The position numbers were made by a program, and so were the translations under genes. Source: Candidatus Hydrogenedentota bacterium (GTDB lineage: Bacteria; Hydrogenedentota; Hydrogenedentia; Hydrogenedentales; JAEUWI01). From it: a stretch of 64,000 bases of DNA. Below are positions 56,613 through 61,259 of the stretch, in pieces. The DNA lies in contig JAHBVV010000001.1 in the NCBI GenBank assembly GCA_019637335.1, positions 751,440-815,439 on the forward strand, given 5' to 3'. The stretch's first letter is position 1. Every line of letters begins with the position of its first letter. The notes under the pieces were generated by a model, which searched no databases, was not told the DNA's origin, and was given only the letters and a program-made list of their open reading frames with translations.

Positions 56613-58244
56613 CTACTTCCCGGCGCGTGGCCGCCGGCGCGCGAGGCCCAGCGCCGCGAGCACGCCCATCAGCAGGAGGCTGTCGCCCGCCACCGCGGCG
56701 GCGCTGGATCGCGCGCCGAAGTTCGGCGCGGGACAGCCGGCCGGAGGCCCTTCACCTTCACCTTCGCCTTCACCCTCGCCTTCACCTTCGCCGCCGCCCG
56801 CGCGGATGATTTCGCCGCCATCGCTCTCTGAAAACGTCACGGTGAGTGGATTGAAGTTCACCAGGGCGGAAAGATCAATCACGGAGTTCGCATTGGCCGC
56901 CAGGAAGGACTTGACCTGGCCCAGGGGCGTTTCCACCGTCGCCAGCGCCGAAAGATCGACCCGCGCACCGCCCGTGGCGCTTGTCGGGTGCGCCAGTCCC
57001 GGACACCCCGAGTTCGTGATGGAAATCGTGTCCAAACCGGAGGCGTCCAGCAACGTTCCCGCGCCGGTGGCCGTGAAGGGAGCGCCGGCTTCACAGCGAT
57101 CCCAGGTGTAGCTGCGCAGCGCGGTAAGATCGAGTTCCGCGCCGGCGGCCGCCACGAAATTCACGTTACGGGCCGTGGTGAACTTTGGCGCCGACAACGA
57201 GGCTTCGCCCGTCACGCTGACCGAGGCCGGACCCGTCATGCCCTCCACCGTCGTGAGCTCGGGCAAATTCAGGGTGGAGTCCGGTGCGAGAACCACGTGG
57301 GTGTCCCGCAGGTGCGTCAACGACGGCAGCGTCCACCGCCCGGTGGTGGGGGCCGTCAGCATGCTCCGGGTCATCGACTCCAGCGCGAGCATGGAAAGCG
57401 ACTGGATGCCGGCGGGCGCCAGGATGCACGAATCCGCACTCACCAGCGCATTGGCGAGCACCAGCCCGCCGACCACCGTGATGGATGTATGCGATAGCGC
57501 GGTAAGGGACGGCAGGTCGAGTGACGAATCCGCATCGACCACGACAGCGATGTTCACTTCGTGGTCGGCGTCGAGGCCTTCGATGGATTCAAGATTGGGC
57601 ACGCTGATCGCCCCATCGAGCACCAGTTCAATCGAAAGCGCCTGCGGCCCGGGCGCGCTTATGGACGCCAGCGCGCCAAGATTCAGGTAACCGCCGCTGC
57701 CCGCAACGATAGTCAAGGCGCCCCCTTCGCAGTCTCCGCCGCCGGCGACGATGGTGGCGACGCCGGAGAGGTCCAGCACCGAGTCTTCGCCGTCCACGAG
57801 GATGAGCGACGCGTCGCCACAGCCGCTCCAGTGGTATTCGGTGGCGCCGGAGAGATCGGCCATGCCGCCCGAAACGACCTGCAATCGCCCATCGCTGATC
57901 GCCGTAGCGCCGGCCGCGACGAAGGACGCGCCGGAACCGCTCACGGTCAGCCGCGCGCCGTCCGTAAGGGTGAAGCTCCCGTTAATCTGCCGCGCATCGG
58001 TGACCGTAACGCTCACGCCACTGATCGTGACGTTATCCTCAGGGGCGGGCACGGCCCCCCCACTCCAGTTCGATCCGACGTGCCAGTTGCCATTGCTCCC
58101 ACCGGTCCAACTCACGTCCGCTCCCCAGGCGTTCGGTGGATTCGATGCGACCGCGAGAATGAACGCCCCCGCGATTACGCCCCTTGTGAGGCGGCGTATC
58201 GCATGCTCCACTGATGTTTCGCCAACATTCACTGTGGTATTCAT
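56613..58244 (-). CDS. Secreted repeat protein with Gly-Glu linker and Cys-Pro/TM/Arg C-terminus (paralogue A)
   Basis: About 543 residues from ATG 58244 with AGAGAGG upstream. A long signal peptide ends near NAWGA. It opens with DVSWTGGSNGNWHVGSNWSG and VPAPEDNVTISGVSVTV, a beta-helix-like start. Many strands of about 20-25 residues follow (for example TDGARLTVSGSGASFVAAGA, GSGGYLNLGALASISAP, SITVVGGLVLANALVSA). The C-terminus has (GE)n, then PPAGCPAPNFGARSS, a membrane helix (SLLLMGVLAALGLA) and RRRPRAGK, which looks like a protein-sorting tail. Probably a surface adhesin or polysaccharide-binding protein. Its neighbour at 58583-60178 is a close paralogue. Confidence 0.85.
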   Translation of the reverse strand: MNTTVNVGETSVEHAIRRLTRGVIAGAFILAVASNPPNAWGADVSWTGGSNGNWHVGSNWSGGAVPAPEDNVTISGVSVTVTDARQINGSFTLTDGARLTVSGSGASFVAAGATAISDGRLQVVSGGMADLSGATEYHWSGCGDASLILVDGEDSVLDLSGVATIVAGGGDCEGGALTIVAGSGGYLNLGALASISAPGPQALSIELVLDGAISVPNLESIEGLDADHEVNIAVVVDADSSLDLPSLTALSHTSITVVGGLVLANALVSADSCILAPAGIQSLSMLALESMTRSMLTAPTTGRWTLPSLTHLRDTHVVLAPDSTLNLPELTTVEGMTGPASVSVTGEASLSAPKFTTARNVNFVAAAGAELDLTALRSYTWDRCEAGAPFTATGAGTLLDASGLDTISITNSGCPGLAHPTSATGGARVDLSALATVETPLGQVKSFLAANANSVIDLSALVNFNPLTVTFSESDGGEIIRAGGGEGEGEGEGEGEGEGPPAGCPAPNFGARSSAAAVAGDSLLLMGVLAALGLARRRPRAGK

Positions 58245-58524
58245 AGGGCACCTCTCTTTCACTGCTGCTACCCAAGGGTCACGCGCCACGGCGCGCGTGA
58301 CTTCACCAGACCCTACAGCAGCACAGGCTCTTTCGTAACAACTGATACGGTGTTTTCCGGGTGGGGCCATCGAGAAGGGGGCATATTTCGCATTCTTTTC
58401 CGATTTTCCACGGCGTATTCCGCGCATATCACGATAGGCGCCCCGAGTGTGAAAACGCTGTGTTTCTCGAATTTCCAGCGGTTCCGCCGCGGTATGGGCG
58501 CGCTGCAAGGCCGGTGCGCAAGCA

Positions 58525-58553
58525 AAACGGGCCACCGCCAGGGTGGCCCGTTT
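58525..58553 (-). terminator. Terminator after the second surface-protein paralogue
   Basis: AAACGGGCCACC, loop GCCAG, GGTGGCCCGTTT; on the minus strand it is followed by TGCTT, giving a short U-rich tail. The CGGGCCACC/GGTGGCCCG core is the same as at 56559-56590. The rest of 58245-58582 holds only the upstream region of paralogue A. Confidence 0.75.
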
Positions 58554-58582
58554 GGCTTCGAAATGAGAGGTCGCTGCCTGAG

Positions 58583-60178
58583 TTATGGCGTGCGCTTAGC
58601 GCGGGTTCGGCCCGCGGCGCCCAGCAGTGCGGCGAGGCCCAGCATCAGGGCGAAATCCCCGAAGACGGCGGCCGAACTGGAGCGGGCTCCCGCCGCCGGG
58701 GCGGGACAACCGGCGGGAGGTCCCTCACCCTCACCCTCGCCTTCCCCTTCCCCTTCTCCGCCGCCGGAACCGCTTCTCAGGATGCGCCCGCTGTCGAGCT
58801 CGAAAAACGTTGTGTTCGCGGCGTTGAAGGTTACGAGCGAGGATATGTCAATCACCGTACCTGGATTGGACGCCAGGAAGGACAGGAAGTGTCCGGCCGG
58901 CACGATCGCCGAGCGCAGCCCGGAAAGATTGATCGTCGCGCCGCCGTTGGCCCCCACGTTGTATCCGAGACCCGAGCAGCCGGTGTTCGCCACGGTAAGG
59001 CTCCGCAGCCCGGCGAAGTTGAGCGTTGCGCCGGTCCCCGCGCTGAACATCGCGGCGCCTTCGCAGAGGTCCCACAGGTAGGTTTCCACCAGGGGCAAAT
59101 TGAGGCTGGAGTTTTCCGTGGCCGAGAAGGAGACGTTACGGATCGCACGAAGTTTCGGCGCGGACAGCGCGCCTGAGCCGTTTGTGGATACCAGGGCCCC
59201 CGGCGCGGTCGCCTCCAGGGTAACGAGTTCCGGCATGTCCAGAAAGGCGCCGTCCCCGACTTGGACGATGGTGTCGCGCAGGTTCGCCAGCGCGTGCAGC
59301 GTGACACGGCCGGTGTTGTTCAGAAAGAAGAAACACGCCACCAACGTTTCCAGGCGATCCAGCGAGATCGCATCCAGCCCGCCGATGGAGAAGGTGCTTC
59401 CGTGGGCCTCGACCAGGTTGTCGGCGTCCAGCATCCCGCCCTCGGCGACCAGTATGCTGCTGTTCACGAAGCGGGTGAGGGCGGGCAGATCGAACATCGT
59501 GGCGTCGTTTACCAGGATGAAGCCGCGCTCGACATCCGCGAGATTCGGCGTGAGTATGTGGCCCCCCGTCACGGCGCCAAGCGACAATTGCTGGCTATCC
59601 GCCGCCGCGATCCATTGCAGTCCGGAGAGGTCCAGCACGCCCCCGACGCCGACCAGAATATTCTGCTGGATCGGCGCGCCCTCGGGGCCGTTGATGAAGA
59701 TGGATTCCATGGCGGACAGATCCAGCGTGCTGCCTTCGCCATCCACCTGAAACAGCATCTGGTTTGAATCCAGCGTGCACTCATACTCCGTGGCGTTCGG
59801 AAAAGCGGCCGAAGCGCCGTTTCGCACCGCGACGCGCCCATCCGAAAGCGACGTCGCGCCGCGGGCGATAAACGAGGCGTCCGCGCCGGTCACCTGCAAC
59901 AGGGCGTTGCCGGAGAGCGTAAACGAGCCATCGATCGCACGGATGTCGGTGATGGTGACCAACGCGCCCTCGATGGTCACGTTGTCATCGGGGGCGGGCA
60001 CACCGCCGCCGCTCCAGTTCGCGCCATTGTTCCACGGCCCGATCGCGGGCCCGACCCAACTGACGTCCGCGGCGGGGGCCAGGCCCGCGCCCATCACGCA
60101 AACGAATCCCACTATCCAGGACTTGAACCTGGCGGTGTGGCGCCCCCGCGCGCCTCCCTCGATATACACTCCTGCCAT
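58583..60178 (-). CDS. Secreted repeat protein with Gly-Glu linker and Cys-Pro/TM/Arg C-terminus (paralogue B)
   Basis: About 531 residues from ATG 60178 with AAAGGAATG upstream. The layout equals that of paralogue A: signal peptide, DVSWVGPAIGPWNNGANWSG and VPAPDDNVTIEGALVTI, beta-helix-like strands (GVLDLSGLQWIAAADSQQL, TRFVNSSILVAEGGMLDA), then (GE)n, PPAGCPAPAAGARSS, a membrane helix (DFALMLGLAALLGAAG) and RTRAKRTP. Sequence identity between A and B is highest in the first 60 and last 55 residues. The two genes are tandem on the minus strand and end in related hairpins, so a segmental duplication is likely. Confidence 0.87.
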   Translation of the reverse strand: MAGVYIEGGARGRHTARFKSWIVGFVCVMGAGLAPAADVSWVGPAIGPWNNGANWSGGGVPAPDDNVTIEGALVTITDIRAIDGSFTLSGNALLQVTGADASFIARGATSLSDGRVAVRNGASAAFPNATEYECTLDSNQMLFQVDGEGSTLDLSAMESIFINGPEGAPIQQNILVGVGGVLDLSGLQWIAAADSQQLSLGAVTGGHILTPNLADVERGFILVNDATMFDLPALTRFVNSSILVAEGGMLDADNLVEAHGSTFSIGGLDAISLDRLETLVACFFFLNNTGRVTLHALANLRDTIVQVGDGAFLDMPELVTLEATAPGALVSTNGSGALSAPKLRAIRNVSFSATENSSLNLPLVETYLWDLCEGAAMFSAGTGATLNFAGLRSLTVANTGCSGLGYNVGANGGATINLSGLRSAIVPAGHFLSFLASNPGTVIDISSLVTFNAANTTFFELDSGRILRSGSGGGEGEGEGEGEGEGPPAGCPAPAAGARSSSAAVFGDFALMLGLAALLGAAGRTRAKRTP

Positions 60179-60281: not shown

Positions 60282-61259
60282 ATGCACACAAACGCCAACG
60301 ACGATGAGCGCGTCGGGCGCATCGCTCCGGAGGGCGCGGAAATCATGGCGCTGCTGGCCGCGCCCGGGGGAACCCGCCAAACGGTTCACCGCGCCATGCA
60401 GTTCGCCGCGCGCCTTCGCGCCCCACTTTCGTCTCTGTTCGGCCAGCCGCTCCGCGATCTGCTGGCGCGCGCCGTGCCCGGCGAAGAGGACGCCGCGCGC
60501 GCCCTGCACGCATGCGACGCCGATTGCCGGTGGCGGGGGGAGGCTGCGGTGTCGCTGTGCGCCGCGGCCGGTATTCAGCGGGTCACCTGCGCGGACCCGG
60601 CGTATCCGGCGCTCTTGCATACCCGCCTGGGCCAACAGGCCCCGCCGATTCTGTTCCACCAGGGGAACGAGGCGCTTCTCGGCGCGGGCGGGGCCGGGAT
60701 CGTCGGAACCCGCAAGCCCACGGGCGACGGCGCCGGTATCGCGCGCGAGGCCGCGCGCTTCCTGGCCGATTCCGCGATCCCCGTGATCAGCGGCGGGGCC
60801 GCCGGGGTGGACCTGGCGGCGCACGAGGCGGCCATGCACGCGGATGGCGCGACGGTGGTGGTGCTTGCCGAGGGCCTTCATGCGCACCACCCGACGCCGG
60901 CGATCCGCTCCGGTCTCGAACAGGGGCAGGCGCTGCTGATCAGCGAGTTCATGCCTGGATTGGAGTGGAAAGCGCACCGCGCCATGATGCGCAACCGGAC
61001 GATCGCCGCGATGTCGGGCGCGGTGTGTGTGGTGGAGCCCCGCGCGACGGGCGGCAGCCGGGCCACCGCCGAGGCGGCGCTTTCCATGGGCGTGCCGGTG
61101 TTCCATTGGGGCGGGGCGGCCCGGGAAGGGATCTTCCGGGGCCGGCACGGCGCCCGCCCGCTCGCGACGCGCGGGCGGCTGGACACGGCGGCGCTTGAGG
61201 CGGCGTTACGCGGAAACACGGGGGAGGCGGGGTTTCAGGCGGACTTGTTCGGCGAGTAA
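60282..61259 (+). CDS. dprA: DNA-processing protein DprA (Smf)
   Basis: A 325-residue DprA-type protein, which loads RecA on incoming single-stranded DNA in transformation. The Rossmann-like core has GIVGTRKPTGDGAGIAREAA, PVISGGAAGVDLAAHEAAM and RNRTIAAMSGAVCVVEPRATGGSRATAEAA. An N-terminal helical part (EIMALLAAPGGTRQTVHRAM) precedes it. The C-terminal winged-helix domain of many DprA proteins appears to be missing or very short. Start ATG 60282 has no strong ribosome site. Confidence 0.85.
   Translation: MHTNANDDERVGRIAPEGAEIMALLAAPGGTRQTVHRAMQFAARLRAPLSSLFGQPLRDLLARAVPGEEDAARALHACDADCRWRGEAAVSLCAAAGIQRVTCADPAYPALLHTRLGQQAPPILFHQGNEALLGAGGAGIVGTRKPTGDGAGIAREAARFLADSAIPVISGGAAGVDLAAHEAAMHADGATVVVLAEGLHAHHPTPAIRSGLEQGQALLISEFMPGLEWKAHRAMMRNRTIAAMSGAVCVVEPRATGGSRATAEAALSMGVPVFHWGGAAREGIFRGRHGARPLATRGRLDTAALEAALRGNTGEAGFQADLFGE

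Follow-up and report, generated by a model that had tools for sequence, protein, structure and literature searches.

A candidate cysteine-type sorting tail on surface proteins of Candidatus Hydrogenedentota

Two adjacent genes on the reverse strand of the window (the whole 64,000-nucleotide stretch of Candidatus Hydrogenedentota DNA analysed here) encode surface proteins with closely similar ends: gene 1 (56613..58244, 543 residues) and gene 2 (58583..60178, 531 residues) both finish in a Gly-Glu (GE) repeat, a cysteine, a hydrophobic helix and a basic terminus. What is such a tail for? A sequence-only reading had likened it to the CTERM class of sorting signals, singled out the GE repeat and a Cys-Pro pair as its hallmarks and implied a dedicated sorting enzyme. 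Our analysis indicates that the tail is probably a new and portable cysteine-type CTERM signal that, by analogy, would work like MYXO-CTERM and is found through much of the phylum.

Results

We searched for further tails in the window's own genome (G000; 7,157,908 bases in 55 contigs). Used as a query, the tail of gene 2 gave 35 matches at E≤10 and yielded 24 tails in which the cysteine, the helix and the C-terminal end were all aligned. A profile including the GE part (A1) gave 37 matches, while a GE-less profile built from 22 own-genome tails (A2) gave 42 at E≤10, of which 33 reached E≤1e-3; this count includes the tails used to build A2, which match by construction. The tail is therefore not limited to the two window genes. 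Domain scans of ten of the 32 tail proteins collected revealed unrelated domains or none known, among them lysyl-oxidase with DM13, a lactonase propeller with an Ig-like domain, CHRD with EF-hand and DUF6851 with vanadium-chloroperoxidase, alongside FG-GAP, beta-helix and cohesin domains. Signal-peptide-like N-termini were found by a crude hydropathy scan in 29 of the 32, the other three including fragments. Across 68 genomes of the phylum, A1 had matches at E≤1e-3 in 40 and a GE-less profile at E≤0.01 in 42. The CTERM-type layout with a cysteine ahead of the helix is thus upheld, the tripartite arrangement of cysteine, helix and arginines of the MYXO-CTERM kind being seen on unrelated exported proteins. 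Since the tail recurs on dozens of these, genome- and phylum-wide, it looks like a surface-sorting signal.

The alignments define what is conserved within it. The core feature is a single cysteine (22 of 22 rows of A2) followed, 9–17 residues on, by (G/A/S)D where the helix begins; this aspartate is near-invariant (glutamate in one of the 22 rows). The same cysteine and helix-start aspartate stand out in a broader alignment of 33 tails (A5; 9 own-genome and 24 foreign places), for which a cysteine was required when the foreign rows were picked. A5 had no match in 20 of the 25 genomes of one family (f11; G043–G067), which served as an internal negative control. A composition test used 21 distinct own-genome open reading frames (ORFs), some paralogous and so not fully independent, chosen only for an array of at least four GE units and a charge-free hydrophobic C-terminus. 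All 21 had a cysteine within the 28-residue stretch that precedes the helix, whereas composition alone would predict one in 24% of proteins; Asp or Glu stood at the helix edge in 19, against a weak expectation of 66%. A gene cluster on contig C15 includes two members that lack the aspartate, and several tails contain GCGC, GCSC or CCGGCC.

Proline directly follows the cysteine in only 7 of the 22 aligned A2 tails, so Cys-Pro is not a motif. Nor does the GE repeat appear to be a recognised one: it is a frequent spacer, usual but not obligatory, some weaker-matching proteins ending in convincing tails without GE or with GE elsewhere, whereas the aspartate had been overlooked. GE arrays (counted from at least five units) extend to 117 units with mixed synonymous codons, and because all eight synonymous GGN-GAR hexamers are used across 41 arrays and 1283 Gly-Glu units, they are more than a DNA microsatellite. 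In many tail proteins an EF-hand-like segment separates the GE array from the cysteine (L304, L309, L311, L313, L315). The (GE)n repeats of L305, L308, L312 and L306 score above the curated cut-off of Pfam PF22807 (TrAA12), a likely source of wrong annotation; these matches cover the arrays or their edges and were discounted as low-complexity.

The tail also looks like an undescribed signal. A scan of the 24 own-genome and 33 A5 tails found no NCBIfam model that describes it, consistent with the initial impression that it was not of a familiar kind; the best stray matches were to JDVT-CTERM (E=0.0011), VPDSG-CTERM (0.0013) and MYXO-CTERM (0.0076). The JDVT-CTERM model NF033191 matched none of the 24 own-genome tails, no PEP-CTERM motif or match to TIGR02595 occurred among either set, and the MYXO-CTERM model TIGR03901 matched neither full-length window protein at E≤1. 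Further cysteine-type tails were reportedly described by Haft in 2024. Literature text searches, covering few subscription papers, returned no report of such a tail for this phylum.

The two window genes are paralogues, as proposed, with 46% identity across 497 residues (E=6e-117). Gene 1 starts at an ATG at 58244 within a frame that opens at 58535, and gene 2 at an ATG at 60178 within a frame that opens at 60346. Each begins with a signal-peptide-like segment, read from the sequence, of 41 residues in gene 1 (58122..58244) and 36 in gene 2 (60071..60178), after which both continue with ADVSWxG..GxWxxGxNWSGGxVPAPxDNVTI. The bodies (56796..58121 and 58769..60070) lead into linkers of seven GE units in gene 1 (56748..56795; a hexamer array was found by Tandem Repeats Finder at 56749-56798) and six in gene 2 (58721..58768). 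The sorting tails, located from the ORFs and, for gene 1, from genome profile matches, occupy 56616..56747 (Cys codon 56733-56735) and 58586..58720 (Cys codon 58706-58708). Both read GEGEGE..GPPAGCPAP, GARSS, (A/F)GD, hydrophobic helix and Arg/Lys, ending in RRRPRAGK after AGD and the helix in gene 1 and in RTRAKRTP after FGD and the helix in gene 2.

Neither protein matched Pfam or NCBIfam. An AlphaFold2 model of gene 2 (mfcfac68c9a3d) predicts an ordered, strand-rich body (residues 1-434, predicted local distance difference test score, pLDDT, mostly >90), followed by a GE linker that lacks structure and, at residues 466-488, by a C-terminal helix, the latter two at low pLDDT. We read the strand pattern of the model as a beta-solenoid, an assignment that would extend to gene 1 by homology. 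Foldseek gave three matches to the body at E≤0.001, all leucine-rich-repeat ectodomains with low TM-scores, and ranked bacterial beta-helix adhesins after these at weaker E values. Body homologues in two of the f11 genomes without an A5 match (G048 and G049; 28–30% identity) stop exactly at the body end and carry no tail, as expected of a modular signal. In a further homologue, on contig C8 of the window's own genome, the body is repeated within a 2425-residue frame; just downstream of it lies a tail protein bearing a domain of the vanadium-haloperoxidase type.

We profiled four candidate enzymes over the 68 genomes, namely the CPBP proteases CPBP35, CPBP33 and CPBP32 and a group of XrtH-like exosortases (A4), leaving out two own-genome CPBP proteins (L031, an ABC-permease fusion, and L034). 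All four own-genome CPBP proteins scanned scored below every Mrt cut-off. CPBP33 has complete EExxxR, H and HxxRN motifs, and its GNAT-CPBP-ABC ATPase-permease gene order is kept in most loci read (L324–L331). CPBP32 was rejected, being present in only 10 genomes, mostly of the window's family. Co-occurrence was assessed by Fisher tests on hand-compiled presence lists, corrected neither for relatedness nor for multiple testing. Over all 68 genomes, with tails scored by A1, P values were 0.04 (A4), 0.09 (CPBP35) and 0.05 (CPBP33); with tails scored by A1 or A5 they were 0.025, 0.024 and 0.014, respectively. In the subset of 42 genomes with a completeness of at least 90%, neither scoring gave a significant result for any candidate. 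Short flanks contained no tail gene near 30 PF09721, 30 CPBP35, 12 CPBP33 or 10 CPBP32 loci. Because no candidate follows the tail well and neighbourhoods give little, the dedicated enzyme implied by the sequence-only reading is still an inference.

The exosortases deserve separate treatment, since they underlie the strongest alternative, an exosortase-type signal. On this view an XrtH-like enzyme specific to the phylum would read (G/A/S)D, cut at that point and attach the protein to a surface molecule, with the cysteine secondary. Searches with PF09721 turned up exosortases in many of the genomes, together with the A4 group, whose ORFs span a few hundred residues and match only the last third of the profile. 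A4 is present in 50 of the 68 genomes, and all 17 aligned sequences share an invariant Cys, Arg and His, which we take to be the catalytic triad. The five members scanned all scored 64–79 bits against exosortase H (TIGR04177; cut-off 86) and 49–57 bits against the general exosortase/archaeosortase model (TIGR04178), above its cut-off of 23, and records of the XrtH-like enzyme from named organisms assign the group to this phylum. In several genomes a membrane protein comes after A4 or is fused to it; of two such partners scanned, one has a weak match to the model for the XrtH-associated membrane protein (18.2 bits; cut-off 35). A tail gene lies just upstream of A4 in G032, a TIGR04073 'exosortase system-associated' gene adjoins the sole tail gene found in G031, and a tail gene occurs within 10 kb at each of the two exosortase loci in the window's own genome (two genes in a post hoc count). 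However, the XrtH-like gene appears to be absent from the window's own genome, rich in tails as it is: recG, the neighbour of A4 in G035, is present there and the other flank is conserved, with no A4 between. Of 39 Hydrogenedentota XrtH-like loci, just one is flanked by a tail gene, A4 occurs in 17 of 28 genomes scored tail-negative, its association with the tail falls away in the most complete genomes (P=0.43) and good PF09721 exosortases are absent from most of the tail-rich genomes of family f3. Three genomes (G018, G020 and G033), all incomplete bins, have tails and neither a PF09721 match at E≤0.01 nor an A4 match. We regard an exosortase-type signal as rather unlikely.

The XrtH-like group (L177 4492-6015; L194 4017-5588; L183 4804-5694) appears undescribed and occurs almost exclusively in Hydrogenedentota; most of its members have a long insert following the first helix. 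Foldseek found no match to its model at E≤0.001, VIA gave only middling helical matches and the PDB holds no sequence relative. The window's own genome has two exosortases above the general cut-offs (L175 3933-5564 and 10270-11175; L176 6303-9137), the first close to a PEP-CTERM protein, the second within a 944-residue frame with glycosyltransferase domains; a second sorting system therefore coexists with the tail.

Discussion

A cysteine-type CTERM signal remains the reading we favour, and a route can be proposed for it. Tail proteins would be exported by Sec through their N-terminal signal peptides, after which the C-terminal helix and arginine cluster would halt them in the inner membrane with the cysteine outside. 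By analogy with MYXO-CTERM, the cysteine may then be lipidated and the helix cut off by an intramembrane protease. The lipid-anchored protein would finally be delivered to the cell surface, and there the long, acidic (GE)n spacer, predicted to be disordered, could hold the folded domain off the membrane.

Several observations weigh against this reading. None of the four profiled candidates is a convincing cognate enzyme. CPBP35 is found in 55 of the 68 genomes but is missing from the tail-rich G025 (19 A1 matches), and the EE pair does not occur in the relatives aligned with it; CPBP33, found in 58, also occurs in 21 of the 28 genomes scored tail-negative and sits in the GNAT-CPBP-ABC operon. 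The additional body homologue in the window's own genome (C8:148788-151391; L361, L364), a third beside genes 1 and 2, ends without a tail. Only weak matches link the tail to known cysteine-type families, JDVT-CTERM in 2 and MYXO-CTERM in 2 of the 33 A5 tails. The helix-start aspartate, moreover, presumably resembles the exosortase motif position at least as much.

A hybrid class can also be envisaged, in which a MYXO-CTERM-like cysteine tail has its helix-edge aspartate read by a phylum-specific XrtH-like exosortase rather than a CPBP protease, the cysteine being lipidated separately. We think this unlikely. If true, a single signal would bring together cysteine-lipid and exosortase surface attachment, which are known as distinct systems, and hexamer-driven (GE)n expansion would tune the reach of the spacer. 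It is quite improbable that the tail is a plain, unprocessed anchor in the membrane, preceded by a flexible and acidic spacer, because, although a helix and basic residues suffice for stop-transfer and no profiled enzyme is tied to the tail, such an anchor would not need an invariant cysteine and a near-invariant helix-start aspartate on unrelated proteins of many genera.

As a cysteine-type signal, the tail appears to be the main protein-display signal in much of an uncultured phylum, and it would allow hundreds of unnamed surface proteins to be annotated at once. What joins the cysteine, and by which enzyme, becomes testable in a second lineage, for which the presence or absence of the tail at genus level is a ready phylogenetic profile.

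Three known systems invite comparison. PEP-CTERM and its exosortases, including exosortase H, share with the new tail the helix-plus-arginine layout and an acidic residue at the helix edge, and an XrtH-like enzyme is present in the phylum; the new tail, however, has an invariant cysteine in place of a PEP motif, and the window's own genome keeps a separate PEP-CTERM protein beside its exosortase. JDVT-CTERM with MrtJ likewise has a cysteine followed by a helix and arginines, and is the best stray family match. JDVT systems, however, consist of a single target gene beside mrtJ (PMC11980579), whereas here there are dozens of targets per genome and no MrtJ above cut-off among the four own-genome CPBP proteins scanned. 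The closest parallel is MYXO-CTERM, which is cut by the CPBP protease MrtX in a cysteine-dependent manner, probably after lipidation, on proteins with a preceding disordered region and GCGC motifs (PMC11980579). Both systems combine an invariant cysteine, often as Cys-x-Cys, with a short spacer, a membrane helix and an arginine cluster, behind a disordered region and on dozens of unrelated exported proteins per genome. The new tail differs in failing the TIGR03901 model and in having no phylum-wide CPBP protease that tracks it among those profiled. It differs also in its near-invariant helix-start aspartate and its long (GE)n spacer, and would add to the cysteine-type CTERM signals one from outside the Myxococcota with an extra fixed aspartate.

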